This document shows positions 7,434 through 51,526 of a stretch of 53,725 nucleotides of DNA, in pieces. The translations under genes were made by a program, and so were the position numbers. How positions within the stretch are numbered: position 1 is the stretch's first letter; every line of letters begins with the position of its first letter. The notes beneath the pieces are model-generated. The model made no database searches. It was given only the letters and a program-made list of their open reading frames with translations, and was not told where the DNA came from. The stretch comes from Armatimonadota bacterium (GTDB taxonomy: Bacteria > Armatimonadota > Hebobacteria > CAIYQO01), in the NCBI GenBank assembly GCA_029553475.1, contig JAKPKV010000068.1, positions 1 to 53,725 on the forward strand, given 5' to 3'.

Positions 7434-10400
7434 ATGGTGCGTGTCTTTGCCGTGTCCCTGTTGTGTGTGCTCGGTATTGCGGCCTGTGCCGGTCAACGCC
7501 AGCTTGTGCTGAAAGAATGGATTGGTCGCGATTGGCCGCGCACGCTGCTACATTATGACCTAACCTGCGCGCCGGGTGAGTTCCGTCCTGGTCAGGTGGA
7601 GGTTATCAACCAGGATGATCAGGCTGTGTCGAGCCAGCTTGTCGTCCTCGCCACGCACCAGGACGGCTCTATCGCTCGCTGCCGACTGAGCTTTTACGCC
7701 GAGTTGCCGGAAGGCGACAGCCGCGCCTTCATCGCACGTTCCACGAGGAACCCCGCCGTCTTCCCGGCGGGGGTAACGGCGATACCGAAACACGGCGTGC
7801 TGGAAGTGACCAGCGCTTCCACCGGCGTGCGCCTCCCCGCGCCAGGCGGGGAGGCGTTTACGCAGCCCGTCGAGCCCTCCGCCGTGCCCGCGCCGATTCT
7901 CGGCTATCGCCTTTCAACTGGCCAGTGGGCGGGTAAAGGCTGGCTGGAGAGCGACCGCAAAGTGGCAGGCTGGTCGCAAACCGTCGTCGCCGATGGACCG
8001 CTGTATATGGAGTATGCCTACGAGGTGCGCTATGCCCCGGAAGGTTACTATCGGGTCCGTGTGCGGGTGGAAGCGGAAGAGCCGCTGGTGTACGTGGCGG
8101 AAGAATACGATATGCGCGCTGCCACGCGCGGCAAGGACTTCTTCGTGCTGACGCTGGACGAGGGATGGCATCCCGACACCGCGCTCTGGGCCTGTGACCG
8201 TCTGCCGGCCGGCAAGCAAGTGCGCGTGCGCGACCGCCGCGTCGAGCACGATACCTGCGTGTGGAAAGAGACGCTGGATTTCACCGCCGACCGCCGCCAC
8301 TCGCAACTATATCCCACCGGCGACTGGGGCGGCAAGGCGCAGTGGTACGGCGTTTTTGCTGAGCAAGGCGATGCCGCATCGCCATTCGTCGGCGTGATGA
8401 CGCAGCATACCGGCGCCTGGCGTTTGCCGGATCAATCCCTGTCGGAATTCCGCTGGACGAAAGACGGCACGGTGCTGGCCCGATTCCGCACCTCCATCCA
8501 CCTGAACGGCGTGCCGCAAAACCCGTTCTCCACCGCGGAGATTGACCCAAGCCTGCCACAGACGCTGGGACGGCGCATGTGGGCGCTGGTGCTGGGTCCG
8601 CGCCCGGGGATGATGCCGGATGGCAAAACGCTGGACTACACCAGGCTTGACGGGTGGCGTGGCTACCAGGGATTCATCAACCTTGATGATTACAAAGACT
8701 GGGTGCTCACCTGGGACGAGCAACCACTGCCGCGGCCGCGCGCCTTGACAACCCCCGAGCTCTTGGCACGGTTGAAAGCGAATCTCGACCGCTGTCCGGG
8801 CAAGGCGCAGATCGAACACTTTTCCCTCATCACGGGTGACGTGAAAACAGCGGAGACGGAAGCGGCCCAGGCGCTTGCCGGGTTGGCGGGGCGCCTGCGC
8901 AGTCTGGACTTTTTCTGCACGCATTACCGCCAGACACAGATGGATTACGATCCGGTCTTTTACGCTGACAGCGCGCTCGCCTGCGCTGCACTGCCGGCGG
9001 AGACGCGGCAGGCCGTTCGCGCGCGCGTCGCGGCGATGTGCTACATGCTGACCAGCGCGGATTTCATCCCGCGCGGCGCGGGCACCCACATGGGCAATCC
9101 GAATATGGCGATCAATCGCTATATGGGCATGCCGATGTATGCGCAGATCATTGCCGACCACCCGCTGGCGAAAGCATGGCTCGACGATGCGTATGTGTAC
9201 ACGAAGTGGAAAACGTCGTATAACGTGACTTCGGCCGGCGGTACCTTCCGCGAGAACCCCGGCTATGCCACGTATGGACCGAGCATGTTCATCGGCTCCG
9301 CCGCCCTCGCGCTGCGCAACGCCGGGTATGACATCGCCTCTTTTACGCCATTGAAAGAGTGGGGATTGTATTTTGAAGCGATTGATACGCCGCCGACCAC
9401 TCCGCGTGGGCAGTATCGCCAGTGGATTGTCGCTTGGCTCAACGGGAAGAAGGTGCGCGTGCTGCCCGGCTTCGGCAACGGCGCGGACGTGGCCGGCGGT
9501 CAATTGTACCTGATGCTCGCGAACCTGACGGCGAAGTCTGATCCAGCCTTCGCGTCGCGCATGATGGCGAACTGGCAGGAGGCCGGCGCCCATCAAGGCA
9601 GCGCGGATTCCAACAGTCCGGTGTCCTGGTTCTGGTGGAATCCCGATGTGGAGCCCGCGCCGGCGAAGCGTACGGACCATCTGCTCACCGGCTTCGGCGG
9701 CATCCTGCGCGACCACGCCGACAGTCCGGAGGAAACCTACGTGGCGTTGCGCCAGGGGTATACGCAGAGCCACTGGAACCCCGACCAGGGCACCTTCGTG
9801 CTCTATGCCCGCGGCGCCTGCATCGCGCCGCCGACGGGGTGGGGGTATTCCGGCACGCAGGGCATCTGCCACGACTCGCGCATCTGCTTTGGCGAACCGC
9901 TGGCGGATCATGAACACGGTCGCGTAGATACGAACATCGAGGATTACGGTTTCACGCCATCGGTCGGCTATCTGCTGGGACGGCAGACGTTTCTGCGGCG
10001 ATGGGATCCGACAAAGACGCTGAAAAACGACTTCGACTGGAGCCGCCAGGTGGTGATGCTGCGCTCGGGGACGGTTACCACGCCCACCTACGTGGTAGTG
10101 CGGGACAGCACGCAGGGTGACTGCCCGCTGCAGAGCTGGTGGTATCAGTGGCTGACCGCGAAGCAGGAGAACGTCTCGCTCATTCCCGGCGGCGTGCATG
10201 TGAAGCTGGCGGATGGCGCGCTGTGCAATATCTACTTCGTGGCTCCGCAGAACCCGCGGGTGACGATCAAAGGCACGAAGGTGGGGGGATTCACGGAAGA
10301 CTACACCCAGATTAGTCTTTCACAGGGTGCGAACCAGGGCTACCTCACGGTCTTCTACCCGTATAAAGAAGGCGAGCCGCTGCCACGGCAGATTGAGCGA

Positions 10401-11195
10401 TTGGGGGAGGGGATCATCAAAGTGACCACCGCCGCCTCCACCGATTACGTCTTCTGCGCGGTGGAGAAACCGGTGACGTACAAAGACGACATCGTCAGCA
10501 TCAATGCCTTTGCCGGCGCGGTGCGTATCTATCCGGACCGGGTGGTGCTGGTGAACGCCTCGGGACTGGACGGCACGGTCGGCTACCGCGGCGTCATTGC
10601 CAGCGGTACGGGGCCATTTGAGCGCGAAACCCTCGTGAATCCGACGAAGCCGGAGCGATTCAGTTATCCGTCGCCGCGCGAGTTTGCCGAACCGATGGGC
10701 ACGCCGAAGTCGTTCCTCTCCGCGTCACGGCCGGTACTGGAAGGATGGATAGAGAAGGCCACGGCGAAGACGACATACGTGGGCTGGACGGGGAGCGGCC
10801 GCATTGGCGATACGGATTTCTACGTCATCGCCGAGGCGCCATTTTCCGCCACGCATGAAGCGGGAAACATCACGATCACGACTGATGGCCGACGCCGCAT
10901 GCTGCAGATGCCCATCCCGGAGGATATTGTGCCGGCCAACCTGCTGCCGCCGAAGGATAGCCTGCCGGAGGATTTTAAACTGAACTGGTCGGTGGGCGGC
11001 TGGATTAACTGGCCGTGGGCGGTAGACGTGAAGATAGACGGCATCCCCTACCAGGGCGGCTGGTACGACGGCCTGATGACGGTGGGCGTGCCGGAAGGCC
11101 GGCACGTCATCGAGATCACCCCGTACACCAATCCGCCGGTGTGGACGGAGAATGCGTATACGCGCCTGCTGCCGGCGCCGGCGGTGAAGAGGTGA
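7434..11195 (+). CDS. Very large secreted protein, possible polysaccharide-lyase-like, paralogue of 43484-46882
   Basis: The 1253-aa protein starts with a signal peptide whose IAAC at residues 16-19 could be a lipobox, so it may be a lipoprotein. I do not recognise a named domain with certainty. The order resembles alpha-barrel plus beta-sandwich polysaccharide lyases of the heparinase II/III type: an N-terminal beta region, a helical centre with HMGNPNM, then GFGNG, GFGGILRDHADSPEETYVAL and a long beta-rich C-terminus. The same landmarks in the same order occur in the second large protein of the window (HLGNPNM, AFGNGSW, GFGAILRGGLPVKEEAWVAF). The start has a GGAGG site. A role in glycan breakdown fits the many carbohydrate genes nearby but is inference. 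Confidence 0.6.
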   Translation: MVRVFAVSLLCVLGIAACAGQRQLVLKEWIGRDWPRTLLHYDLTCAPGEFRPGQVEVINQDDQAVSSQLVVLATHQDGSIARCRLSFYAELPEGDSRAFIARSTRNPAVFPAGVTAIPKHGVLEVTSASTGVRLPAPGGEAFTQPVEPSAVPAPILGYRLSTGQWAGKGWLESDRKVAGWSQTVVADGPLYMEYAYEVRYAPEGYYRVRVRVEAEEPLVYVAEEYDMRAATRGKDFFVLTLDEGWHPDTALWACDRLPAGKQVRVRDRRVEHDTCVWKETLDFTADRRHSQLYPTGDWGGKAQWYGVFAEQGDAASPFVGVMTQHTGAWRLPDQSLSEFRWTKDGTVLARFRTSIHLNGVPQNPFSTAEIDPSLPQTLGRRMWALVLGPRPGMMPDGKTLDYTRLDGWRGYQGFINLDDYKDWVLTWDEQPLPRPRALTTPELLARLKANLDRCPGKAQIEHFSLITGDVKTAETEAAQALAGLAGRLRSLDFFCTHYRQTQMDYDPVFYADSALACAALPAETRQAVRARVAAMCYMLTSADFIPRGAGTHMGNPNMAINRYMGMPMYAQIIADHPLAKAWLDDAYVYTKWKTSYNVTSAGGTFRENPGYATYGPSMFIGSAALALRNAGYDIASFTPLKEWGLYFEAIDTPPTTPRGQYRQWIVAWLNGKKVRVLPGFGNGADVAGGQLYLMLANLTAKSDPAFASRMMANWQEAGAHQGSADSNSPVSWFWWNPDVEPAPAKRTDHLLTGFGGILRDHADSPEETYVALRQGYTQSHWNPDQGTFVLYARGACIAPPTGWGYSGTQGICHDSRICFGEPLADHEHGRVDTNIEDYGFTPSVGYLLGRQTFLRRWDPTKTLKNDFDWSRQVVMLRSGTVTTPTYVVVRDSTQGDCPLQSWWYQWLTAKQENVSLIPGGVHVKLADGALCNIYFVAPQNPRVTIKGTKVGGFTEDYTQISLSQGANQGYLTVFYPYKEGEPLPRQIERLGEGIIKVTTAASTDYVFCAVEKPVTYKDDIVSINAFAGAVRIYPDRVVLVNASGLDGTVGYRGVIASGTGPFERETLVNPTKPERFSYPSPREFAEPMGTPKSFLSASRPVLEGWIEKATAKTTYVGWTGSGRIGDTDFYVIAEAPFSATHEAGNITITTDGRRRMLQMPIPEDIVPANLLPPKDSLPEDFKLNWSVGGWINWPWAVDVKIDGIPYQGGWYDGLMTVGVPEGRHVIEITPYTNPPVWTENAYTRLLPAPAVKR

Positions 11196-19407: not shown

Positions 19408-20751
19408 TTACCGCGCGGGCGCGGCCGGCCGCATGGCGGCGCCCTGGGCGCTGAAGGGGCCGCGTGCGACGGCGGTTGCCAGCGCGAGGTGGGCGCGTTT
19501 GACCAGCACGTCAGCCATGGCGCCGTCCATGGGGAACACGGCATAGCCAATGGTGATTTCCACGGGCTCCGGCTGATCGGCGAAGGGCGCCCGATCCCGC
19601 CGAGACGCGGTCTGGCAGAGCCGTTCGCCGAGGACGCGGGCTTCGCGGCCGGTGTGCGGCAGCAACAGGCCGAAGGTGCCGTCACCCAGGTACCCGATGA
19701 GATCCACCACGCGGGTGCTGTCGCGCAGCCAGCGTCCGATGCCGGTCAGCAGGAGGCGGTCGTCCTCGCGATCTTTCACATGGATGAGCATCAGGGTGAA
19801 GTTCGTGGGGTAGCGCTGGCTGCGCGCGATTTCTTCCTTCACGCGCAGGTGAATATACATGCCGGAATGTACGCCGGTGAAGGCGTCGAACGTGGGGATA
19901 TCGGCGGGGATGCCGGATGATGCGGGTTCGTGTCCCTGCGCTTTCACCTCGGCCTGTTCTTCCAGGGTCGTTTTAATCTTCGCGATGGCGCGGCGCAGCA
20001 AATAGGAGGCGTAATTGACGGAGATGCCAAGCTGGCGGGCGATCTCCGTCTGGGTCTGGTCATCGAAGAAATAGTGTCGCACCACCTTCTGCTCAAGGAT
20101 TTTCAACTGGCTGATGGCATCTTCAAGGACGATTTGATCCTCGATGGGCAGGTGATAGCTTTCGGTGTTCATGGGCTGGGCTTGCTCTTTTTCGAGCAGG
20201 CTGATATCGCCATCGCTCGCCCCATCAGTCGGGGGACTGAGCGATGCCACGTGATTCAGCTCTCGGGCGGCGAGCACGTTATGCACCGACTGCAGCGGGA
20301 CGCCGAGCAGGTCGGCGATTTCTTCCGGCATCGGTTCGCGGCCAAGCTCCTGCGTGAGCTGCTCGGTGGCGCGCAGCACCTTCGCGTTGAGTTCCTGGAC
20401 CCAGGCCGGCTGGCGGATGAGGCGTCCACGGTCGCGCAGGTAGTGTTGAATCTGGCTGGTGATGAGGTGGCTGGCGTAGGTGGTGAATTTCACGCCGCGT
20501 TCAGGATCGAACAGGTCCACGGCGTTCAGCAGGCCGATGGTGCCTTCCTGGATCAGGTCTTCCAACGATTCTCCCAGGCCGCTGAAGCGCCGGGTGAGGC
20601 TGTGGACCAGATGGAGGTGTTGGCAGACGAGCTGGTCACGCACCGCCACCTCTCGACTCTGACGATATTGCCGGAAACGCGCCAGCATGTCGCCGGCGTC
20701 GCCCGCGGGCGCAGACGCGTCTTCCTGGTTCGCAAGCGGATGGTATGTCAT
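19408..20751 (-). CDS. Sigma-70 family sigma factor fused to a degenerate GGDEF-like domain
   Basis: This is a 447-aa protein. Residues about 35-110 are sigma region 2 (SLEDLIQEGTIGLLNAVDLF, FDPERGVKFTTYASHLI, RGRLIRQP). Residues 120-170 resemble region 3, and 205-262 region 4 with the helix-turn-helix TQTEIARQLGISVNYASYLL. After a linker, residues 288-435 follow the diguanylate-cyclase fold: DAFTGVHSGMYIHLRVKEEI in place of the DxLTGL opening, LGDGTFGLLLP (355-365) in place of GGDEF, and ITIGYAVFP then KRAHLALATA at the end. GGDEF is changed to LGDGT, so catalysis is unlikely; it may bind a nucleotide. The ATG overlaps the stop of pilC by 1 bp (TGATG), so the two are translated together. Confidence 0.85.
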   Translation of the reverse strand: MTYHPLANQEDASAPAGDAGDMLARFRQYRQSREVAVRDQLVCQHLHLVHSLTRRFSGLGESLEDLIQEGTIGLLNAVDLFDPERGVKFTTYASHLITSQIQHYLRDRGRLIRQPAWVQELNAKVLRATEQLTQELGREPMPEEIADLLGVPLQSVHNVLAARELNHVASLSPPTDGASDGDISLLEKEQAQPMNTESYHLPIEDQIVLEDAISQLKILEQKVVRHYFFDDQTQTEIARQLGISVNYASYLLRRAIAKIKTTLEEQAEVKAQGHEPASSGIPADIPTFDAFTGVHSGMYIHLRVKEEIARSQRYPTNFTLMLIHVKDREDDRLLLTGIGRWLRDSTRVVDLIGYLGDGTFGLLLPHTGREARVLGERLCQTASRRDRAPFADQPEPVEITIGYAVFPMDGAMADVLVKRAHLALATAVARGPFSAQGAAMRPAAPAR

Positions 20752-21965
20752 CAGTGAATATTGCCTACTAACGCGTAAATGGGGGCGATCACACTCACGG
20801 CGATGAAGCCGACGAGGACGCCGATGAAGACGATGAGCACCGGTTCCAGCAGTGATGCCAGACCTTTGAGCGTTGAATCTACTTCCGATTCGTAGAAATC
20901 GGAGACTTTGATGAGCATCTGATCCAGACGTCCCGTTTCTTCCCCGACGGAGATCATCTGGGTGACCATGAGCGGGAAAATCGTGCTGCCCTGCATGGGG
21001 TCGCTGATCTTCTCGCCTTCCTTCACGCTGGTGCAGGCTTGCTCGATCACCTGGGCGACGGCACGGTTGCCAGCGGTATCCGCGGTGATCTCCAACGCCC
21101 GCAGCACCGAGACGCCGGCGGCGACAAGGGTGCCGAAGGTGCGCGTGAAGCGAGAGATCGCGACTTTCAGGATGATATCGCCGAAAATCGGGATGCGGAG
21201 CTTCACGCGGTCCAGGTGCAGCGCGCCGGTCTCGGTGCGGCCATACAGATAGGTACCGGCGATCAGGCCGGCGATACTACCGAGGACCAGGTACCAATAT
21301 TTTTTCGTCGCGGTGGCGAAACCGAGCATGAACGCGGTGGACATCGGCAGTTTCGTGATGCCCATATCGTCAAAGATGCGCTGGAACTGCGGCAGCACCC
21401 ACCACATCATGACGCCCATGACACCGATCGCGAAGATCATCACCACCGAGGGATACATCATGGCGGCGCGGACTTTATTGCGCATCTCCAGCTCTTTTTC
21501 CAGGAAGGTTGAGAGCCGGTCCAGTACCTGGTCAAGGATGCCGCCCATTTCCGCGGCGCGCACCATGTTGATGTAAAGCCTGGAGAAGACGCGCGGATGT
21601 TTCGCCAGCGCCTCCGTGAGGCTGGCGCCGCCGTGGACATCTTTGCGCACGCTGGCCAGCGCTTCCTGCAGCACAGGGTCTTTCGTCTGCCGCTGCAGGA
21701 TATCCAGGCATTTCAGCACGCTCAAGCCGGCGTCAATCATGGTGGCGAACTGCCGGCTGAATGCGACCAGCTCCTTCATGTTGACGCGGCTGAAGCTGCG
21801 GAAGAAGTCGGTCAGGTTCGAGGGCGGGGGAATCTCATTGATCCCGACGATGTGGTAACGCAGGTCGGTCAGCTTGGCGCGCACGGTTTCGAGGTCGTCA
21901 GCTTCGAGCGTCCCGGCATAGGGGCGCCCCATGTTGTCAATGGCAGTGTATCGAAACCAGGGCAT
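20751..21965 (-). CDS. Type IV pilus / type II secretion inner-membrane platform protein
   Basis: This is a 404-aa PilC/GspF-family protein. It opens with MPWFRYTAIDNMGRPYAGTL. It has two GspF domains, the first with FSRQFATMIDAGLSVLKCLD and the second with FTRTFGTLVAAGVSVLRALE, and three membrane helices, with the last at VLIVFIGVLVGFIAVSVIAP. It is the platform on which pilus ATPases act during pseudopilus assembly. I choose the ATG at 21965, preceded by GGGAG, rather than one nine codons upstream. The downstream sigma/GGDEF gene is translationally coupled to it. A prepilin-like gene lies 1.6 kb away. Confidence 0.93.
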   Translation of the reverse strand: MPWFRYTAIDNMGRPYAGTLEADDLETVRAKLTDLRYHIVGINEIPPPSNLTDFFRSFSRVNMKELVAFSRQFATMIDAGLSVLKCLDILQRQTKDPVLQEALASVRKDVHGGASLTEALAKHPRVFSRLYINMVRAAEMGGILDQVLDRLSTFLEKELEMRNKVRAAMMYPSVVMIFAIGVMGVMMWWVLPQFQRIFDDMGITKLPMSTAFMLGFATATKKYWYLVLGSIAGLIAGTYLYGRTETGALHLDRVKLRIPIFGDIILKVAISRFTRTFGTLVAAGVSVLRALEITADTAGNRAVAQVIEQACTSVKEGEKISDPMQGSTIFPLMVTQMISVGEETGRLDQMLIKVSDFYESEVDSTLKGLASLLEPVLIVFIGVLVGFIAVSVIAPIYALVGNIH

Positions 21966-22144
21966 GCAGACTCCCTTCGGCGATGATAGCACACGGCATG
22001 GCGTTCCGCGCGTTCAGCTTCCCGCGCATCCGATGCATGAGTGAACCTGCCAGTAAGACCCGTTCCCGCGGCGCGCGGGAGCGCTTACCCGCATAGTACC
22101 ATATTCCATACCAGATGACCAGTCTCGCGATCCTTTCCGCGCGG

Positions 22145-23602: not shown

Positions 23603-24577
23603 ATGCGAAAGGGATTTACCCTGATCGAGCTGCTTGTCGTCATCGCGATCATCGCGATCCTGGCAGCGATCCTGTTCCCGGTGTTTGCGAAGGCCCGTGA
23701 GAAGGCGCGCACCACCACCTGCCTGCAGAACGTACGGCAGATCGGCACGGCCATCCAGATGTATGTGCAGGACAACGAAGAGATGCTGCCCGGCGTGAGG
23801 GGCATAAACGATTCGTCCTGGCGCACGAACATGAACCAGTATCTGGAAGCGCCGAAGATCTTTGACTGCCCCACGCGTACGGGTGATGGCGGCGTGAACA
23901 AGCCCGAGTACGGCATGAATGGCGCGCTCTTCGCGGCGGCGCTCGGCGACATCCGCGCGCCGGAAGCCACCATCCTGGTTGCCGACTCCCTGGTAACCCC
24001 GGACACGAACATCGCCCTGCCCACCCCGGCCGCGCTGGACAAGAATCGCCACAACGGGGGCTTCAACGCGACGTTCTGTGACGGGCACGTAGACTTCGTG
24101 CGCTCGAACCTGCTGCCGTCTCTCTACACGGTGGATACCACTAACGCGCAGTTCACCACCGCCACCGGCAGCCTGAACGTGGCGCTCACCGACTTTTCGG
24201 ATCGCCTGCTGGCCGGCGGCGTCGGCAGCAGCTACCTGGCGACCATTGATTCCACCCCGGTGGTGAGCACCACCGCCAGCAACACCACCATCACCAAGAA
24301 CGATTACATCACGTATAAGGCGAGCGCGCAGTTCACCGCCGGCGGGCAGTCCATCCTTCGCGTGACGGATGACAAGGGCACCCCAGCCGACGCCGCCGAC
24401 GACACCAAGTGTCTGATCAAGCTGCCGGCGTCCGGCACCGTGGCGATGAACACTTATCTGGTCATCCGCCCGGAGCAGGGCACCGTCGTCAGCGGTCGCA
24501 GCATCAAGTACGAGGTGTTCAACGGCGCCGCGACGCCCGTCGTGCTCGCCACCTTCACCCAGGAGGGCACGGAATAA
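23603..24577 (+). CDS. Prepilin-type N-terminal methylation protein (DUF1559-like pseudopilin)
   Basis: This is a 324-aa protein. [20 protein letters not shown] is a type III prepilin signal with Glu at position +5 and one N-terminal hydrophobic helix. [20 protein letters not shown] follows, a hallmark of the many pseudopilins of Armatimonadota. The middle has [20 protein letters not shown], the H-X9-DG-type signature of this family. The last 150 residues ([20 protein letters not shown] onwards) form an extra beta-rich domain I do not recognise. It is expected to be processed by prepilin peptidase and assembled by the PilC-type platform. Its own promoter and terminator make it monocistronic. 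Confidence 0.92.
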
Positions 24578-43185: not shown

Positions 43186-43483
43186 GGCATATTCCTTTCA
43201 TGATGCTAACGGTGGCTGGCTTCCTCATTCGCCATCTTCCCCCCGTTCCCCCCCGATGACTGCCCCCAAATTTGGTGCCTTTTTGCCAAACGGGGGGTAG
43301 TCGAACGACTATGTATACGCATGGTTGCATACTGCGTAGAGCAGATCTCGCGAATGATATTATGCAGGTGTTGGCGGTTGTCCAAACCGTGATGTGACAG
43401 AGGTGAGGATTTGCGTGATTGGGGCAGGAGGGGGATGGGGGGATTGGGCGAATAGGCGTAGCAGCACTGTTGCGGAGGCGTTT

Positions 43484-46400
43484 ATGCGTTACCTGGTGTT
43501 GCTCCTCGCGTGTCTCTCGCTGGCCGCGCACGCGGCGATGACCTTTACCATCAAGGACTACCTGCAGAAGACCTGGACGAATGAGCTGGTCACCTACACG
43601 GTGAAGCTGCCGGCGTCGCAGGCGAAGCGGGTGACGCTCATCGGGCCGGATGGGAAAGCGGTGCCGGTGCAGGTGACGCCGAAAGGCACCGGCACGGCCC
43701 AGGTGGCGTTTATCGTGGAGGAGCTGCCGGCGGATGGGGAGGTCAAGTATACGCTGAAGGCAGGAAAACCGGTGGGCGGCAGCTTATGGGACATGCAATG
43801 CGATCCCCCCCAACTGACGAGCGGCGTGCTTCGTCTCTTACCGTCCGTCGGCACAGGCACTTTGACGTATACACCGCCAGTGCCGTTGAGCAGTTTCCCG
43901 GCGCCGATTATGGAGGTCGGTAGTCCTGCCGGCCTGTATGGCCATGGGAAGCTGATCGGAGACTTGCCGGTGACTCGCATCACCAGTACGGTGCTCGCTG
44001 ATGGTCCGGTGTACGTCGAGCAGCAGCGCGAGTACCTGTTCCAGGGCGGCGGCTATTATCGCCTGACCTTCCGCGTGGTGAAGGGGCAGAACGCCGTGCT
44101 GGTACGCGAGGAGTTCGACACGCCAAAGACTGCCGCAGGCAAGGCGCTCATGACCTTCTCGCTGTCCACGAACTTCCACCCCGATCGCGTCTCCGCCGCC
44201 ATCCGCACCTGGCGGCAGCGCACCGACCCGAAGACGAACGCCCTCGGCGACGACTACAAGCTCGACTTCGACGAAGCGCGCAAGGAGATGTCCATCCTCG
44301 GCTACGTGAATTGGTGGCCGGAGACGGCGCGGCGGGCGACATTCTACAATTCTACACATCCGAACGGTGACACGATCTCCATCCTGCCGGCGAATATCGG
44401 CTGGTGGCGGAACCCGATGGGGATGTACGTGATGACGGAGCCGGGGGGCAAAGTCCGCCTCGACCTGCCGCTCTACATTGACCAGGACTGGGTGCGCGAC
44501 GGGGTGGAGTGGGGAAATCCCTACTACACCGGCAAGGTGGAGGCGGGCTGGCCGCGGACGGCGGGGCGGCGGGCGTGGGTGCTGCACGTAGATGCGCGGG
44601 CGAACGTCTTCCCGACGGCGGGGCGCAGCAGCGTGCTGGAGGCGGTGCGCAAATACTGCGACCTGCCGCTGGACAAGGTGAAGGACTGGGTGCTGGACTG
44701 GCCGGCTGACCCGAAGGTGACGTATCCGCGCCTCTACGTGGAGCCGGGCAAGCTGGATGCGGTGCGCGCGCGGGTGAAGGCGAACCCGCGGTGGATGGGG
44801 CGGTTCGGGCAGTATTATAACCGGCCGATCAGCTACACCATCCTGGGGGATGCGCAGATCGGCGATGCGCTGGTGCGCGCGCCGAGCAGCAACGCCGCCT
44901 GGAACACGCCGAATGACAGCCAGGGGGCGCTGGAGAGCCTGCGCTCGCTGGTGGGGAAGTTTTGGGAGCACGGGTACATGGGCTTCCCGGCGCCGAACAA
45001 CGCCGCGCCCATGAATGAGTTGATCAAGTTCGACGCGGCGATGAGCGCCGCCACCGCCACCCCGGGGGAGAAGGCGGAGATGCGGCGGCTGATGGCCTTC
45101 GTCGCCAACGTGGTCGCTGACCAGGACTGGCACAGCACGCGCTCCGGCGTGCATCTCGGCAACCCGAACATGCCGCCGCGGCAGGAGCATCACCTGGGGG
45201 TGGCGAGTTGCGTGCTGCCCGACCACCCGCTGGCGGCGGCGTGGCGCCAACGCGGCGAGGCGGAGGCGATGCGCGAGTTGGACGAGATGGTGCGCGAGGC
45301 CGGCACCTGGCGCGAGTGCCCGCACTACCAGTACGAGGCGGCGATGTATCCGCTGTTCCAGTCGGCGGTCCCGATCGCCTACAACGGCGGGCAGAACATC
45401 TTCACGCACCCGAAGATGACGGCGACGTGGGATTACCTGCTGAACATCTCGACGCCGCCCGACCCGCGCTTCGGCACGCGGCTGGTGCCGGCCTTCGGCA
45501 ATGGCTCGTGGGAGCAGGCGCCGCTGTTTGGCTGGCTGGCGAACCTCACGAAGACGGATGCCCCCGCGTTCTCCAGGCGCATGCAGTGGATGTGGATCGA
45601 ACAGGGGCGACCGGACTGGATGCAGTTCAGCGAGACGATGCTCGACCCGGCGCTGCCCGCCGAACCGCCTGCGCTGACGAGCAGGCATTATCCCGGCTTC
45701 GGGGCGATCCTGCGGGGCGGCTTGCCGGTGAAGGAGGAGGCGTGGGTGGCCTTCCGCGCCGGCGACAACGTCGAGCACTATAATTACGGCGATCAAAACT
45801 CCTTCATGTTTTACGCCAAGGGCGCGCCGCTGGTGCTGCAGTTCGGCTCGCAGTATCAGCCGCTCTTCCGCGGGGCCTGGTATTTCAACCGGGTGAGCAT
45901 CGGGCATCGCGAGGTGAAGCCGGGGTTGTTCGGCGGCACGGAATTCGCCAGCGCGGCGGGCAACGCGGATTACGCGGCGAAGATGACGGGCTTTGCCGCG
46001 CTGGGCGCGGTGGACGCCGCGACCAGCCAGCACATCACCGACCGCGAGGGGCTGGTGCCCGACGACAAGAACGTGCCGATGCCCCCCAACTTCCCGATGG
46101 ACCCGTATCCCGTCCCCCCGCGCACCTGGACGCGGACGATGGCGCTGGTGAAATCGTTCGCCGCCGACGGCGCGGAAGACCCGGCGGGACCGGTCTACCT
46201 GGTGCTGCGCGACAGCATCGCCGGCGAGAACCCGCTGGCGAGCGAGTGGAATATCTGGATGCTGATGGATACGATCGAACTCGTTGGCAATCGCGCGACG
46301 TGCACGGGGCCGTTCGGGGTGAACCTGGACGTCTACATGGCCGAACCCGCGCAGCCGCGGTGGTTCATCCGCGAGGATTCCTCCACCTTTCTCGCCGGCC

Positions 46401-46882
46401 CGACGCAGGAATCCTGGCAGAAAATGAACCCCGGCAAGCCGTGGAAGGAGACGCTGAAGAACCTGCGCGCCTACGCCGCGCCGGGCGGTGGATACTTTGC
46501 CATTCTTTTCCCGCGCAAAGCGGGGGAGAAGGCGCCGGACTTCATTCCGCTGAAAGCCGGCACCGGCGTCTGTATTGACCACTCGCGGGGACGCGACATC
46601 GTGGTGATGGATACGGAGCCAATCTCCTGCCAGTATAACAACAATGGGTTCCGATCAGCTTCCGCCGTCCTGCATCAGGAAGGCGAAGTCATCTCCATCA
46701 CGCTGCTTGCGCCAGGTACCATCCAATTTGGCACATGGCTGCTGAACGCCCAAGCCCCCGCGAGTGTCACCCGGCGTGATGGCAAATATTTCCTCTCCAC
46801 CGATGGCCCGGCGCAGACGGTAACGGTGAATGGGAAGACGGTAGAGATTCCTGCCGGAAAGCAGCATCTGGAGGTGAAGTAG
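43484..46882 (+). CDS. Very large secreted protein, paralogue of 7434-11195
   Basis: This is a 1132-aa protein. The start MRYLVLLLACLSLAAHA is a signal peptide, preceded by GCGGAGG; the frame is open 90 bp further upstream without a better start. It shares landmarks with the first large protein in the same order: VYVEQQREYLFQGGGYYRLT, HLGNPNMPPRQEHHLGV, DHPLAAAW, VPAFGNGSWEQAPLFGWLAN, GFGAILRGGLPVKEEAWVAF, FMFYAKGAPL and YLVLRDSIAGENPLASEWN. The centre looks helical, the C-terminus beta-rich, as in heparinase II/III-like lyases. I cannot name the substrate. Unlike the paralogue it lacks a lipobox, so one may be anchored and the other free. Confidence 0.62.
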   Translation: MRYLVLLLACLSLAAHAAMTFTIKDYLQKTWTNELVTYTVKLPASQAKRVTLIGPDGKAVPVQVTPKGTGTAQVAFIVEELPADGEVKYTLKAGKPVGGSLWDMQCDPPQLTSGVLRLLPSVGTGTLTYTPPVPLSSFPAPIMEVGSPAGLYGHGKLIGDLPVTRITSTVLADGPVYVEQQREYLFQGGGYYRLTFRVVKGQNAVLVREEFDTPKTAAGKALMTFSLSTNFHPDRVSAAIRTWRQRTDPKTNALGDDYKLDFDEARKEMSILGYVNWWPETARRATFYNSTHPNGDTISILPANIGWWRNPMGMYVMTEPGGKVRLDLPLYIDQDWVRDGVEWGNPYYTGKVEAGWPRTAGRRAWVLHVDARANVFPTAGRSSVLEAVRKYCDLPLDKVKDWVLDWPADPKVTYPRLYVEPGKLDAVRARVKANPRWMGRFGQYYNRPISYTILGDAQIGDALVRAPSSNAAWNTPNDSQGALESLRSLVGKFWEHGYMGFPAPNNAAPMNELIKFDAAMSAATATPGEKAEMRRLMAFVANVVADQDWHSTRSGVHLGNPNMPPRQEHHLGVASCVLPDHPLAAAWRQRGEAEAMRELDEMVREAGTWRECPHYQYEAAMYPLFQSAVPIAYNGGQNIFTHPKMTATWDYLLNISTPPDPRFGTRLVPAFGNGSWEQAPLFGWLANLTKTDAPAFSRRMQWMWIEQGRPDWMQFSETMLDPALPAEPPALTSRHYPGFGAILRGGLPVKEEAWVAFRAGDNVEHYNYGDQNSFMFYAKGAPLVLQFGSQYQPLFRGAWYFNRVSIGHREVKPGLFGGTEFASAAGNADYAAKMTGFAALGAVDAATSQHITDREGLVPDDKNVPMPPNFPMDPYPVPPRTWTRTMALVKSFAADGAEDPAGPVYLVLRDSIAGENPLASEWNIWMLMDTIELVGNRATCTGPFGVNLDVYMAEPAQPRWFIREDSSTFLAGPTQESWQKMNPGKPWKETLKNLRAYAAPGGGYFAILFPRKAGEKAPDFIPLKAGTGVCIDHSRGRDIVVMDTEPISCQYNNNGFRSASAVLHQEGEVISITLLAPGTIQFGTWLLNAQAPASVTRRDGKYFLSTDGPAQTVTVNGKTVEIPAGKQHLEVK

Positions 46883-50164: not shown

Positions 50165-51526
50165 TTATTCGGGATAAGTACGATACTCTATACCGAAGTA
50201 ATCAAGTACGATTCGGCATAATTCACACGGTTCTTTCGATTCACCATATTCAGCTTTTCCAGGTTTTCGAACATACATGGTATAAATATGTGCCCCCCTC
50301 AACTCATCCAGCACCACTCCGCCAGCAGCCTTTATTTTCCGTATCATCTCATTAATCGCTATAATTTCAGCACACTTTCCCCAATAACCTTGCTCTTCAT
50401 CCCACTCCGGACTATCAAGTAACTGTTGTTTAGCCATTGCGACTACGGGTGCCAACTCTGGCTCATACGTAACCTGCTCAAAGTCCTTCAAGCTTTTTCC
50501 ATATGCAAACCTACCTGTCGGCGTAACTAATTGAGCCACCATATTGGGTCGAGTGCTATTAGTCGTAGTCTGATAGATATAATCGGCATATCTTAGTAAA
50601 CCGTATTTATTGTTCTGATACAGCATGAACTCAGATATATCATTAAAAAAGTAACGACCAAAATTTAGCCAATCATAGTATATAGAGATTTTTATATTGT
50701 CAGGTATAGGCAACGCCTCAATATATGGCGGCAAATACGGCTTCAGGAATTCTGGCGTTTCTTGACTCGCAAATATTGTCAACGAACATGGCCCTATCGC
50801 TAGGCATACGGTTACACGCTCACTAAAAGGATTAAATGGCCGCTGTGGCCCAAGAATAACGGGCGGTTTCGCTATGCGGAACGGATCATTGTCGGGATTG
50901 AAATTCGGATTGTTAATCCCGAAATCCTTTTCCATGGCATACACCATACACCGTGGGCGATTATACAACATGCCATAGGATTCACCCGCGTAATATACAG
51001 TCATCGGCAGCAGTAATATCTCTGCCGATGTCAGCGTCACTGTCGTCGTGATACCTGGCATCGGGATACAATTTGATATCCCCGGGCCAATACGCGTTCC
51101 TGGAACGAATGGGTCTTTAATCTGGTTGACATTCGGGATGCCTGGTTTGAACGGCCCAACGGGTGGTCTGTAGGTTGGTGTCGTCCACAACCCTTGCGGG
51201 TCAATATAATTCACCGGATTATTCAAACAATAGACATAGAGGTTCACGCCTCCTCGATAGCCAATCGGATCGCGCGTCAGCCAGCGCCCTGTACGCGGAT
51301 CATAGTAGCGCAACGTGCAGAGAACCAATCCGGTCTCATGATCCGTATAGTACCCAAACTGGCCTTTATAGCCATACGGATCAGCGGCAGGATTTCCCGC
51401 CAGGCGCTTTCCGTAGGCGTCGTAGAGATCAGATGAGCGGATATCACCTTTCGCGTCGAGTCGGTGGAGCACATTGCCTTGCAGATCGAATTGGTACCAG
51501 GTCGCATTCCGCGCGAGTAGTCCGCC
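50165..51526 (-). CDS. Rhs core fragment with C-terminal deaminase-type toxin (YwqJ-like)
   Basis: The frame is open from a stop at 51527-51529; no true start is seen. GTG at 51472 would give 435 aa. Residues 1-94 are the end of an Rhs core: WYQFDLQGNVLHRLDAKGD (just upstream), GQFGYYTDHETGLVLCTLRY, YDPRTGRWLTRDPIGYRGGV, NLYVYCLNNPVNYIDPQG. After the DPQG boundary comes a 340-residue tip. Its last 70 residues have C367-A-E369 and, 46 residues later, P-C416-E-L-C419, the zinc-site pattern of the cytidine-deaminase superfamily. YwqJ-type toxins use C-A-E in place of H-A-E. The tip is AT-rich compared with the core. A short core fragment plus tip plus immunity gene is the known form of a displaced, orphan Rhs module. 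Confidence 0.82.
   Translation of the reverse strand, partial: GGLLARNATWYQFDLQGNVLHRLDAKGDIRSSDLYDAYGKRLAGNPAADPYGYKGQFGYYTDHETGLVLCTLRYYDPRTGRWLTRDPIGYRGGVNLYVYCLNNPVNYIDPQGLWTTPTYRPPVGPFKPGIPNVNQIKDPFVPGTRIGPGISNCIPMPGITTTVTLTSAEILLLPMTVYYAGESYGMLYNRPRCMVYAMEKDFGINNPNFNPDNDPFRIAKPPVILGPQRPFNPFSERVTVCLAIGPCSLTIFASQETPEFLKPYLPPYIEALPIPDNIKISIYYDWLNFGRYFFNDISEFMLYQNNKYGLLRYADYIYQTTTNSTRPNMVAQLVTPTGRFAYGKSLKDFEQVTYEPELAPVVAMAKQQLLDSPEWDEEQGYWGKCAEIIAINEMIRKIKAAGGVVLDELRGAHIYTMYVRKPGKAEYGESKEPCELCRIVLDYFGIEYRTYPE

Follow-up and report, generated by a model that had tools for sequence, protein, structure and literature searches.

A sigma factor with a fused GGDEF domain as a candidate c-di-GMP receptor in Armatimonadota

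We describe a gene from an Armatimonadota bacterium that encodes a sigma-70 factor with a degenerate GGDEF domain behind its region 4, a real sigma factor architecture that occurs across the phylum and is apparently undescribed. Throughout the family the catalytic A-site of the domain has decayed, and the residues of the c-di-GMP I-site are its best-conserved part. We consider it probable that this sigma factor is gated in cis by c-di-GMP through its own C-terminal receptor and is tied to type IV pili. The fuller proposal, in which the sigma factor is itself the c-di-GMP receptor, sets holoenzyme formation or promoter choice without an anti-sigma factor, dates from early in Armatimonadota and is linked to pili, stands in our estimation slightly above even.

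Architecture and distribution of the fusion

The gene lies in a window of 53,725 nucleotides, the whole stretch of DNA that was analysed, and contains the following parts.

19408..20751, minus strand: sigma-GGDEF gene, a single ORF of 447 aa with its ATG at 20751 and TGA at 19408
20422..20628, minus strand: sigma-70 region 2, aa 42-110 (Pfam PF04542 Sigma70_r2, E 1.1e-19)
20185..20394, minus strand: sigma-70 region 3, aa 120-189 (Pfam PF04539 Sigma70_r3, E 8.7e-14)
19975..20127, minus strand: sigma-70 region 4, aa 209-259/260 (Pfam PF08281/PF04545 Sigma70_r4)
19933..20019, minus strand: helix continuing region 4.2 into the linker that leads to the GGDEF domain, aa 245-273 (AlphaFold2 full-length model)
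19465..19890, minus strand: degenerate GGDEF domain, aa 288-429 (Pfam PF00990, domain model, Foldseek and VIA-align)

All four Pfam domains scored above their gathering cut-offs, the GGDEF domain with an E value of 1.5e-11, or 7.1e-13 when scored alone, which confirms a preliminary description of this DNA as encoding sigma regions 2 to 4 followed in frame by a GGDEF-like domain. The protein also reached the superfamily model TIGR02937. Its best NCBIfam sigma subfamily was TIGR02980 (SigB/SigF/SigG), at 174 bits against a curated cut-off of 234, so that we place it as a sigma-70 factor nearest to SigB/F/G and not as a member of the curated TIGR02980. From its domains it is predicted to be a group-3 sigma-70 factor of the SigB/F/G-like kind.

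A model of the C-terminal domain, built from 64 aligned homologues, gave a pLDDT of 95.5 and a pTM of 0.90. When this model was searched with Foldseek all 50 matches listed were GGDEF-domain structures, and VIA-align gave Z scores of about 20 to the GGDEF structures of Marinobacter, Geobacter and PleD. For PleD with c-di-GMP (2wb4) the Z score was 20.2, at 1.8 Å over 145 residues. The predicted fold is that of a GGDEF domain, and not the unrelated fold that the preliminary description had named as evidence against its reading. The full-length AlphaFold2 model found sigma factors as its top fold matches and had a pTM of only 0.50, so the placement of the sigma part relative to the GGDEF domain is not predicted; within it the region 4.2 helix runs unbroken to residue 273.

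The same fusion, for which the preliminary description had proposed a search in Armatimonadota, proved to be widespread in the phylum. A full-length profile matched in 195 of 291 Armatimonadota genomes at E 1e-70 and in 188, about two thirds, at E 1e-95, the threshold that separates the fusions from sigma-only relatives. The count was still 188 when the set was widened to the nearest relatives (397 genomes), and the matches listed all came from the same phylum or nearer. Full-length matches were present in most of 41 relatives, and most genomes carry one copy, with two in G002. A wider genome collection was searched with family-specific DNA patterns, and the titles of the best 80 loci named Armatimonadetes or Armatimonadota, a class, order or genus within the phylum, or an unspecified bacterium. 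A stop between the two parts, the other observation that would have spoken against the fusion, was absent from the ORF. Because the ORF is uninterrupted and the in-frame fusion recurs in 188 genomes, chance or an assembly artefact can be ruled out as its source.

When the sigma parts were placed in a tree by maximum likelihood, all 49 sampled fusions formed one clade with support of 100/99, and the phylum's SigB/F/G-like paralogues lay outside it. Nested in the fusion clade on a long branch is L248 of genome G036, a sigma-only protein with a short basic tail after region 4. The single clade and the nested position of L248 point to one origin of the fusion and one later loss of the GGDEF domain.

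The A-site and the I-site of the GGDEF domain

The residues discussed below are located as follows.

19672..19686, minus strand: A-site position, GDGTF in place of GG(D/E)EF, aa 356-360 (alignment)
19702..19713, minus strand: primary I-site RxxD, R347-V-V-D350, equivalent to PleD R359/D362
19621..19623, minus strand: I-site arginine R377, equivalent to PleD R390
19822..19824, minus strand: secondary I-site arginine R310, equivalent to PleD R313, as read from the alignment of helix 1 to PleD

The preliminary description had GGDEF replaced by LGDGT; the alignment puts G356-D-G-T-F360 at this position, so the string is GDGTF and the earlier register was off by one. Its statement that the motif is degenerate was borne out across the family, as the canonical GG(D/E)EF was found in none of 95 homologues and later in none of 105. 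The position is occupied by 82 distinct five-residue strings across the 95 distinct homologues. As a reference for the family we took 56 ordinary GGDEF domains of Armatimonadota. The first metal aspartate is present in 100% of the ordinary domains and in 12% of the sigma-GGDEF family, the FK lysine in 98% and 15%, the asparagine of the ND pair in 100% and 2%, the GH histidine in 100% and 0%, the second glycine of GGDEF in 100% and 6%, and its glutamate in 100% and 11%. The guanine-binding aspartate of the GD pair falls from 100% in the ordinary domains to 35% in the family, and over the A-site and substrate positions as a group the range is 96-100% in the former and 0-35% in the latter. In the 447-aa protein the loop that bears N335 and D344 in PleD is also shortened. 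With no GG(D/E)EF in 105 homologues and with metal and guanine residues lost, an active diguanylate cyclase is ruled out. GTP binding by the domain would also be unlikely, since the family as a whole has lost the GTP and metal residues and the PleD N335/D344 loop is shortened here.

The I-site presents a different picture. The RxxD motif and the two further I-site arginines, which the preliminary description did not mention, are intact in the 447-aa protein; R377 belongs with RxxD to the primary I-site, and R310 represents the secondary one. Among 105 homologues R310 is retained in 104, D350 in 104, R347 in 103 and R377 in 102, and these are the top four of 145 scored columns by conservation. 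The four residues occur together in 98 of the 105, one is missing in the other seven, and each homologue keeps at least three. A complete I-site was present in 91 of 95 homologues and in 28 of the 56 ordinary domains (Fisher p of about 4e-11, a value to be taken only as a guide because the sequences are related and not independent). R347 is found in 96% of the ordinary domains and 98% of the family and D350 in 98% and 100%, so a structural role could account for some of their conservation. R377 rises from 75% to 99% and R310 from 73% to 99%, and it is more these two arginines, together with the decay of the A-site, that set the family apart from ordinary GGDEF domains.

In PleD a c-di-GMP dimer is held between two GGDEF domains by R359, D362, R390 and R313 (PMC7288161), and PopA and SgmT are proven c-di-GMP receptors whose GGDEF domains have a dead A-site and a live I-site (PMC3509222). 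For SgmT, competition assays have shown that labelled c-di-GMP is displaced by c-di-GMP alone. At the level of sequence, an A-site lost and an I-site kept is what marks a GGDEF receptor that works through the I-site only, like PopA and SgmT, and c-di-GMP binding by the domain is likely. The preliminary description had offered c-di-GMP or GTP as the possible ligand. The first of these is strengthened by the I-site being the best-conserved part of the domain, and the second loses ground with the loss of the GTP and metal residues.

The departures from the full I-site include the following. In the sigma-GGDEF proteins of two reduced genomes R310, R347 and D350 are kept and R377 is absent; DgcR binds c-di-GMP without the R377-type contact (PMC8041772). 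In the second sigma-GGDEF copy of G002 (L036) HIED replaces RxxD, and this protein may be a paralogue that has diverged and lost c-di-GMP binding.

The conservation pattern also bears on other uses of the domain. A dead GGDEF domain could act as a protein-protein or dimerisation module that binds no nucleotide, its arginines and aspartate forming salt bridges to the sigma part or to another protein, for example one of the pilus or a diguanylate cyclase, and we give this a low, though appreciable, probability. Degenerate GGDEF domains can serve as adaptors, as in FimX-PilZ-PilB (cited in PMC7288161), R303 and E307 on the same helix as R310 are almost as conserved, and a canonical cyclase gene lies near the sigma gene in a family of genomes. 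Such a module leaves unexplained, however, why it is precisely the four known ligand residues that head the 145 columns and why R310 and R377 are conserved above their level in working cyclases. It is improbable that the domain binds another nucleotide, be it GTP, (p)ppGpp, c-di-AMP or cGAMP, in place of c-di-GMP. PleD has been crystallised with c-di-GMP and ppGpp or pppGpp (9g85, 9g86), and the degenerate GGDEF domain of Caulobacter CC3396 binds GTP as an activator (PMC7288161), but in this family the A-site metal and guanine residues for GTP are lost throughout, and the RxxD of the I-site is the c-di-GMP determinant of known proteins. A functionless evolutionary relic, for which the free drift of the A-site and the loss of the domain in one family (G036, locus L248) might speak, is highly implausible, as 188 of 291 genomes retain the domain with both fold and I-site intact, and the keeping of four specific residues across the phylum contradicts it.

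Pilus genes and c-di-GMP machinery

Directly upstream of the sigma-GGDEF gene is a gene for an inner-membrane platform protein.

20751..21992, minus strand: pilC/gspF-like inner-membrane platform gene (Pfam T2SSF, E 4e-66)

The start of the sigma-GGDEF gene overlaps the stop of this pilC-like gene in the sequence TGATG. Downstream of the sigma-GGDEF gene, on the same strand, follows a gene whose product we take to be ribosomal-protein-L28-like, having named it by eye from the sequence. Among 74 loci assessed for their upstream neighbour, each with at least 700 bases upstream, a pilC-like gene was found upstream on the same strand in 49, in 48 of these within 300 bases. A pilT-like ATPase gene occurs farther upstream in 26 of 65 loci, and several loci also contain secretin, PilO-like, T2SSC-like and pseudopilin genes. 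These genes mark the neighbourhood as one of type IV pilus/type II secretion, and the regulon of the sigma factor probably includes surface-appendage genes.

The organism's own genome (G000) contains about 119 matches to the pseudopilin N-terminal methylation motif, and a pseudopilin in the window (23603-24574, plus strand) matches DUF1559 as well. We searched the regions upstream of 60 of these roughly 119 genes for promoters and recovered only Shine-Dalgarno words and sigma-A-like promoters, the latter with at most two mismatches in 14 of 58 regions on the forward strand and 3 of 58 on the reverse. SigB, SigF/G or FliA/WhiG-type promoters showed no clear enrichment upstream of the 60 genes. 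The sampled pseudopilin promoters seem, from these sequences, to be of the housekeeping type.

Elsewhere in the window an ORF at 50168-51472 (minus strand, 435 aa) carries a YwqJ-like deaminase domain at its C-terminal end (Pfam E 8e-9), a type of domain that occurs in polymorphic toxins. Two very long ORFs are present on the plus strand at 7434-11192 (1253 aa) and 43394-46879 (1162 aa), and Pfam at 1e-5 gave no match for either or for the long ORFs opposite them.

The own genome has 14 GGDEF matches, with canonical domains among them, 3 EAL matches and 1 PilZ match, and each of the 41 relatives and 14 additional genomes that were searched has GGDEF matches. At 1.5 Mb and 97% completeness, the two reduced genomes G162 and G163 (L211, L213, L224 and L229) have only two GGDEF domains, one in a canonical cyclase and one in the sigma-GGDEF protein. 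They have two PilZ matches each and no EAL match, and represent a nearly minimal c-di-GMP system. A canonical cyclase gene stands beside the sigma gene in 3 of 80 loci, about the number expected from gene density, and we rejected an enrichment of cyclase genes at this position. At L083, L105 and L108 (genomes G098 and G101) the gene of a canonical diguanylate cyclase is on the opposite strand, no more than about 2 kb from the sigma-GGDEF gene; this layout recurs in these genomes and is conserved within one lineage.

Proposed mechanism and relation to known systems

In our preferred reading, gating of the sigma factor in cis, c-di-GMP would bind the I-site of the fused GGDEF domain, probably as an intercalated dimer as in PleD. 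The bound ligand could then cross-link two sigma-GGDEF C-terminal domains, or one such domain and a partner. As the helix emerging from region 4.2 carries the GGDEF domain, binding would be expected to alter how the sigma factor joins core RNA polymerase or reads the -35 element. The liganded sigma factor would more likely be the sequestered form, with high c-di-GMP switching the regulon off. By analogy with RsiG-(c-di-GMP)2-WhiG we lean towards inhibition at high c-di-GMP, with activation kept in view as a serious alternative.

The I-site residues supply exact mutants, which makes the idea directly testable in vitro. With the fusion in 188 of 291 Armatimonadota genomes, the sigma-GGDEF protein could be a main c-di-GMP output of a little-studied phylum. 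The preliminary description knew of no well-studied sigma factor built in this way, and our own search, which covered a library of open-access papers, likewise turned up no description of a sigma-GGDEF fusion. Each ingredient has a precedent, and for the combination we found none.

The closest precedents for the domain are GGDEF proteins. The fold and the I-site residues are common to the sigma-GGDEF protein and to PleD, WspR and DgcR, whereas the sigma-GGDEF family has lost the catalytic A-site and the metal ligands. PopA and SgmT are nearer, with a dead A-site, an intact RxxD and secondary arginine and no cyclase activity expected (PMC3509222), but one of the two is a response regulator and the other a histidine kinase, and no sigma factor is among the described receptors compared.

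For the position of the domain the precedents are the ECF sigma factors with C-terminal regulatory extensions, namely ECF41 (SnoaL), ECF42 (TPR), CorE/ECF238 and OrbS (PMC8999054, PMC9023288). These also carry a sensor behind region 4, with action in cis, taking the place of an anti-sigma factor, shown or proposed, and for OrbS, CorE and ECF41 a ligand is shown or proposed to alter the contact with core RNA polymerase (PMC9023288, PMC8999054). C-terminal sensors on ECF sigma factors generally go with no anti-sigma factor (PMC9023288, PMC8999054). Unlike the sigma-GGDEF protein, these factors are without region 3, and the ligands of their sensors are metals, proteins or unknown; GGDEF is not mentioned in the review of ECF C-terminal extensions (PMC8999054, PMC9023288).

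The closest parallel in regulation is RsiG-(c-di-GMP)2-WhiG of Actinobacteria, in which c-di-GMP controls a group-3 sigma factor through an anti-sigma factor (PMC8325347). In Rubrobacter the predicted WhiG promoters include those of type IV pilus and cyclase or phosphodiesterase genes (PMC8325347), and the parallel is a close one, as both systems would join a group-3 alternative sigma factor, c-di-GMP (here a candidate ligand) and pilus genes. The receptor there is a separate anti-sigma coiled coil with the motif E(X)3S(X)2R(X)3Q(X)3D, whereas the candidate here is a fused GGDEF domain. If the proposal is true, the sigma-GGDEF protein would be the shortest c-di-GMP route to a sigma factor, a one-component switch where the known route runs through RsiG.
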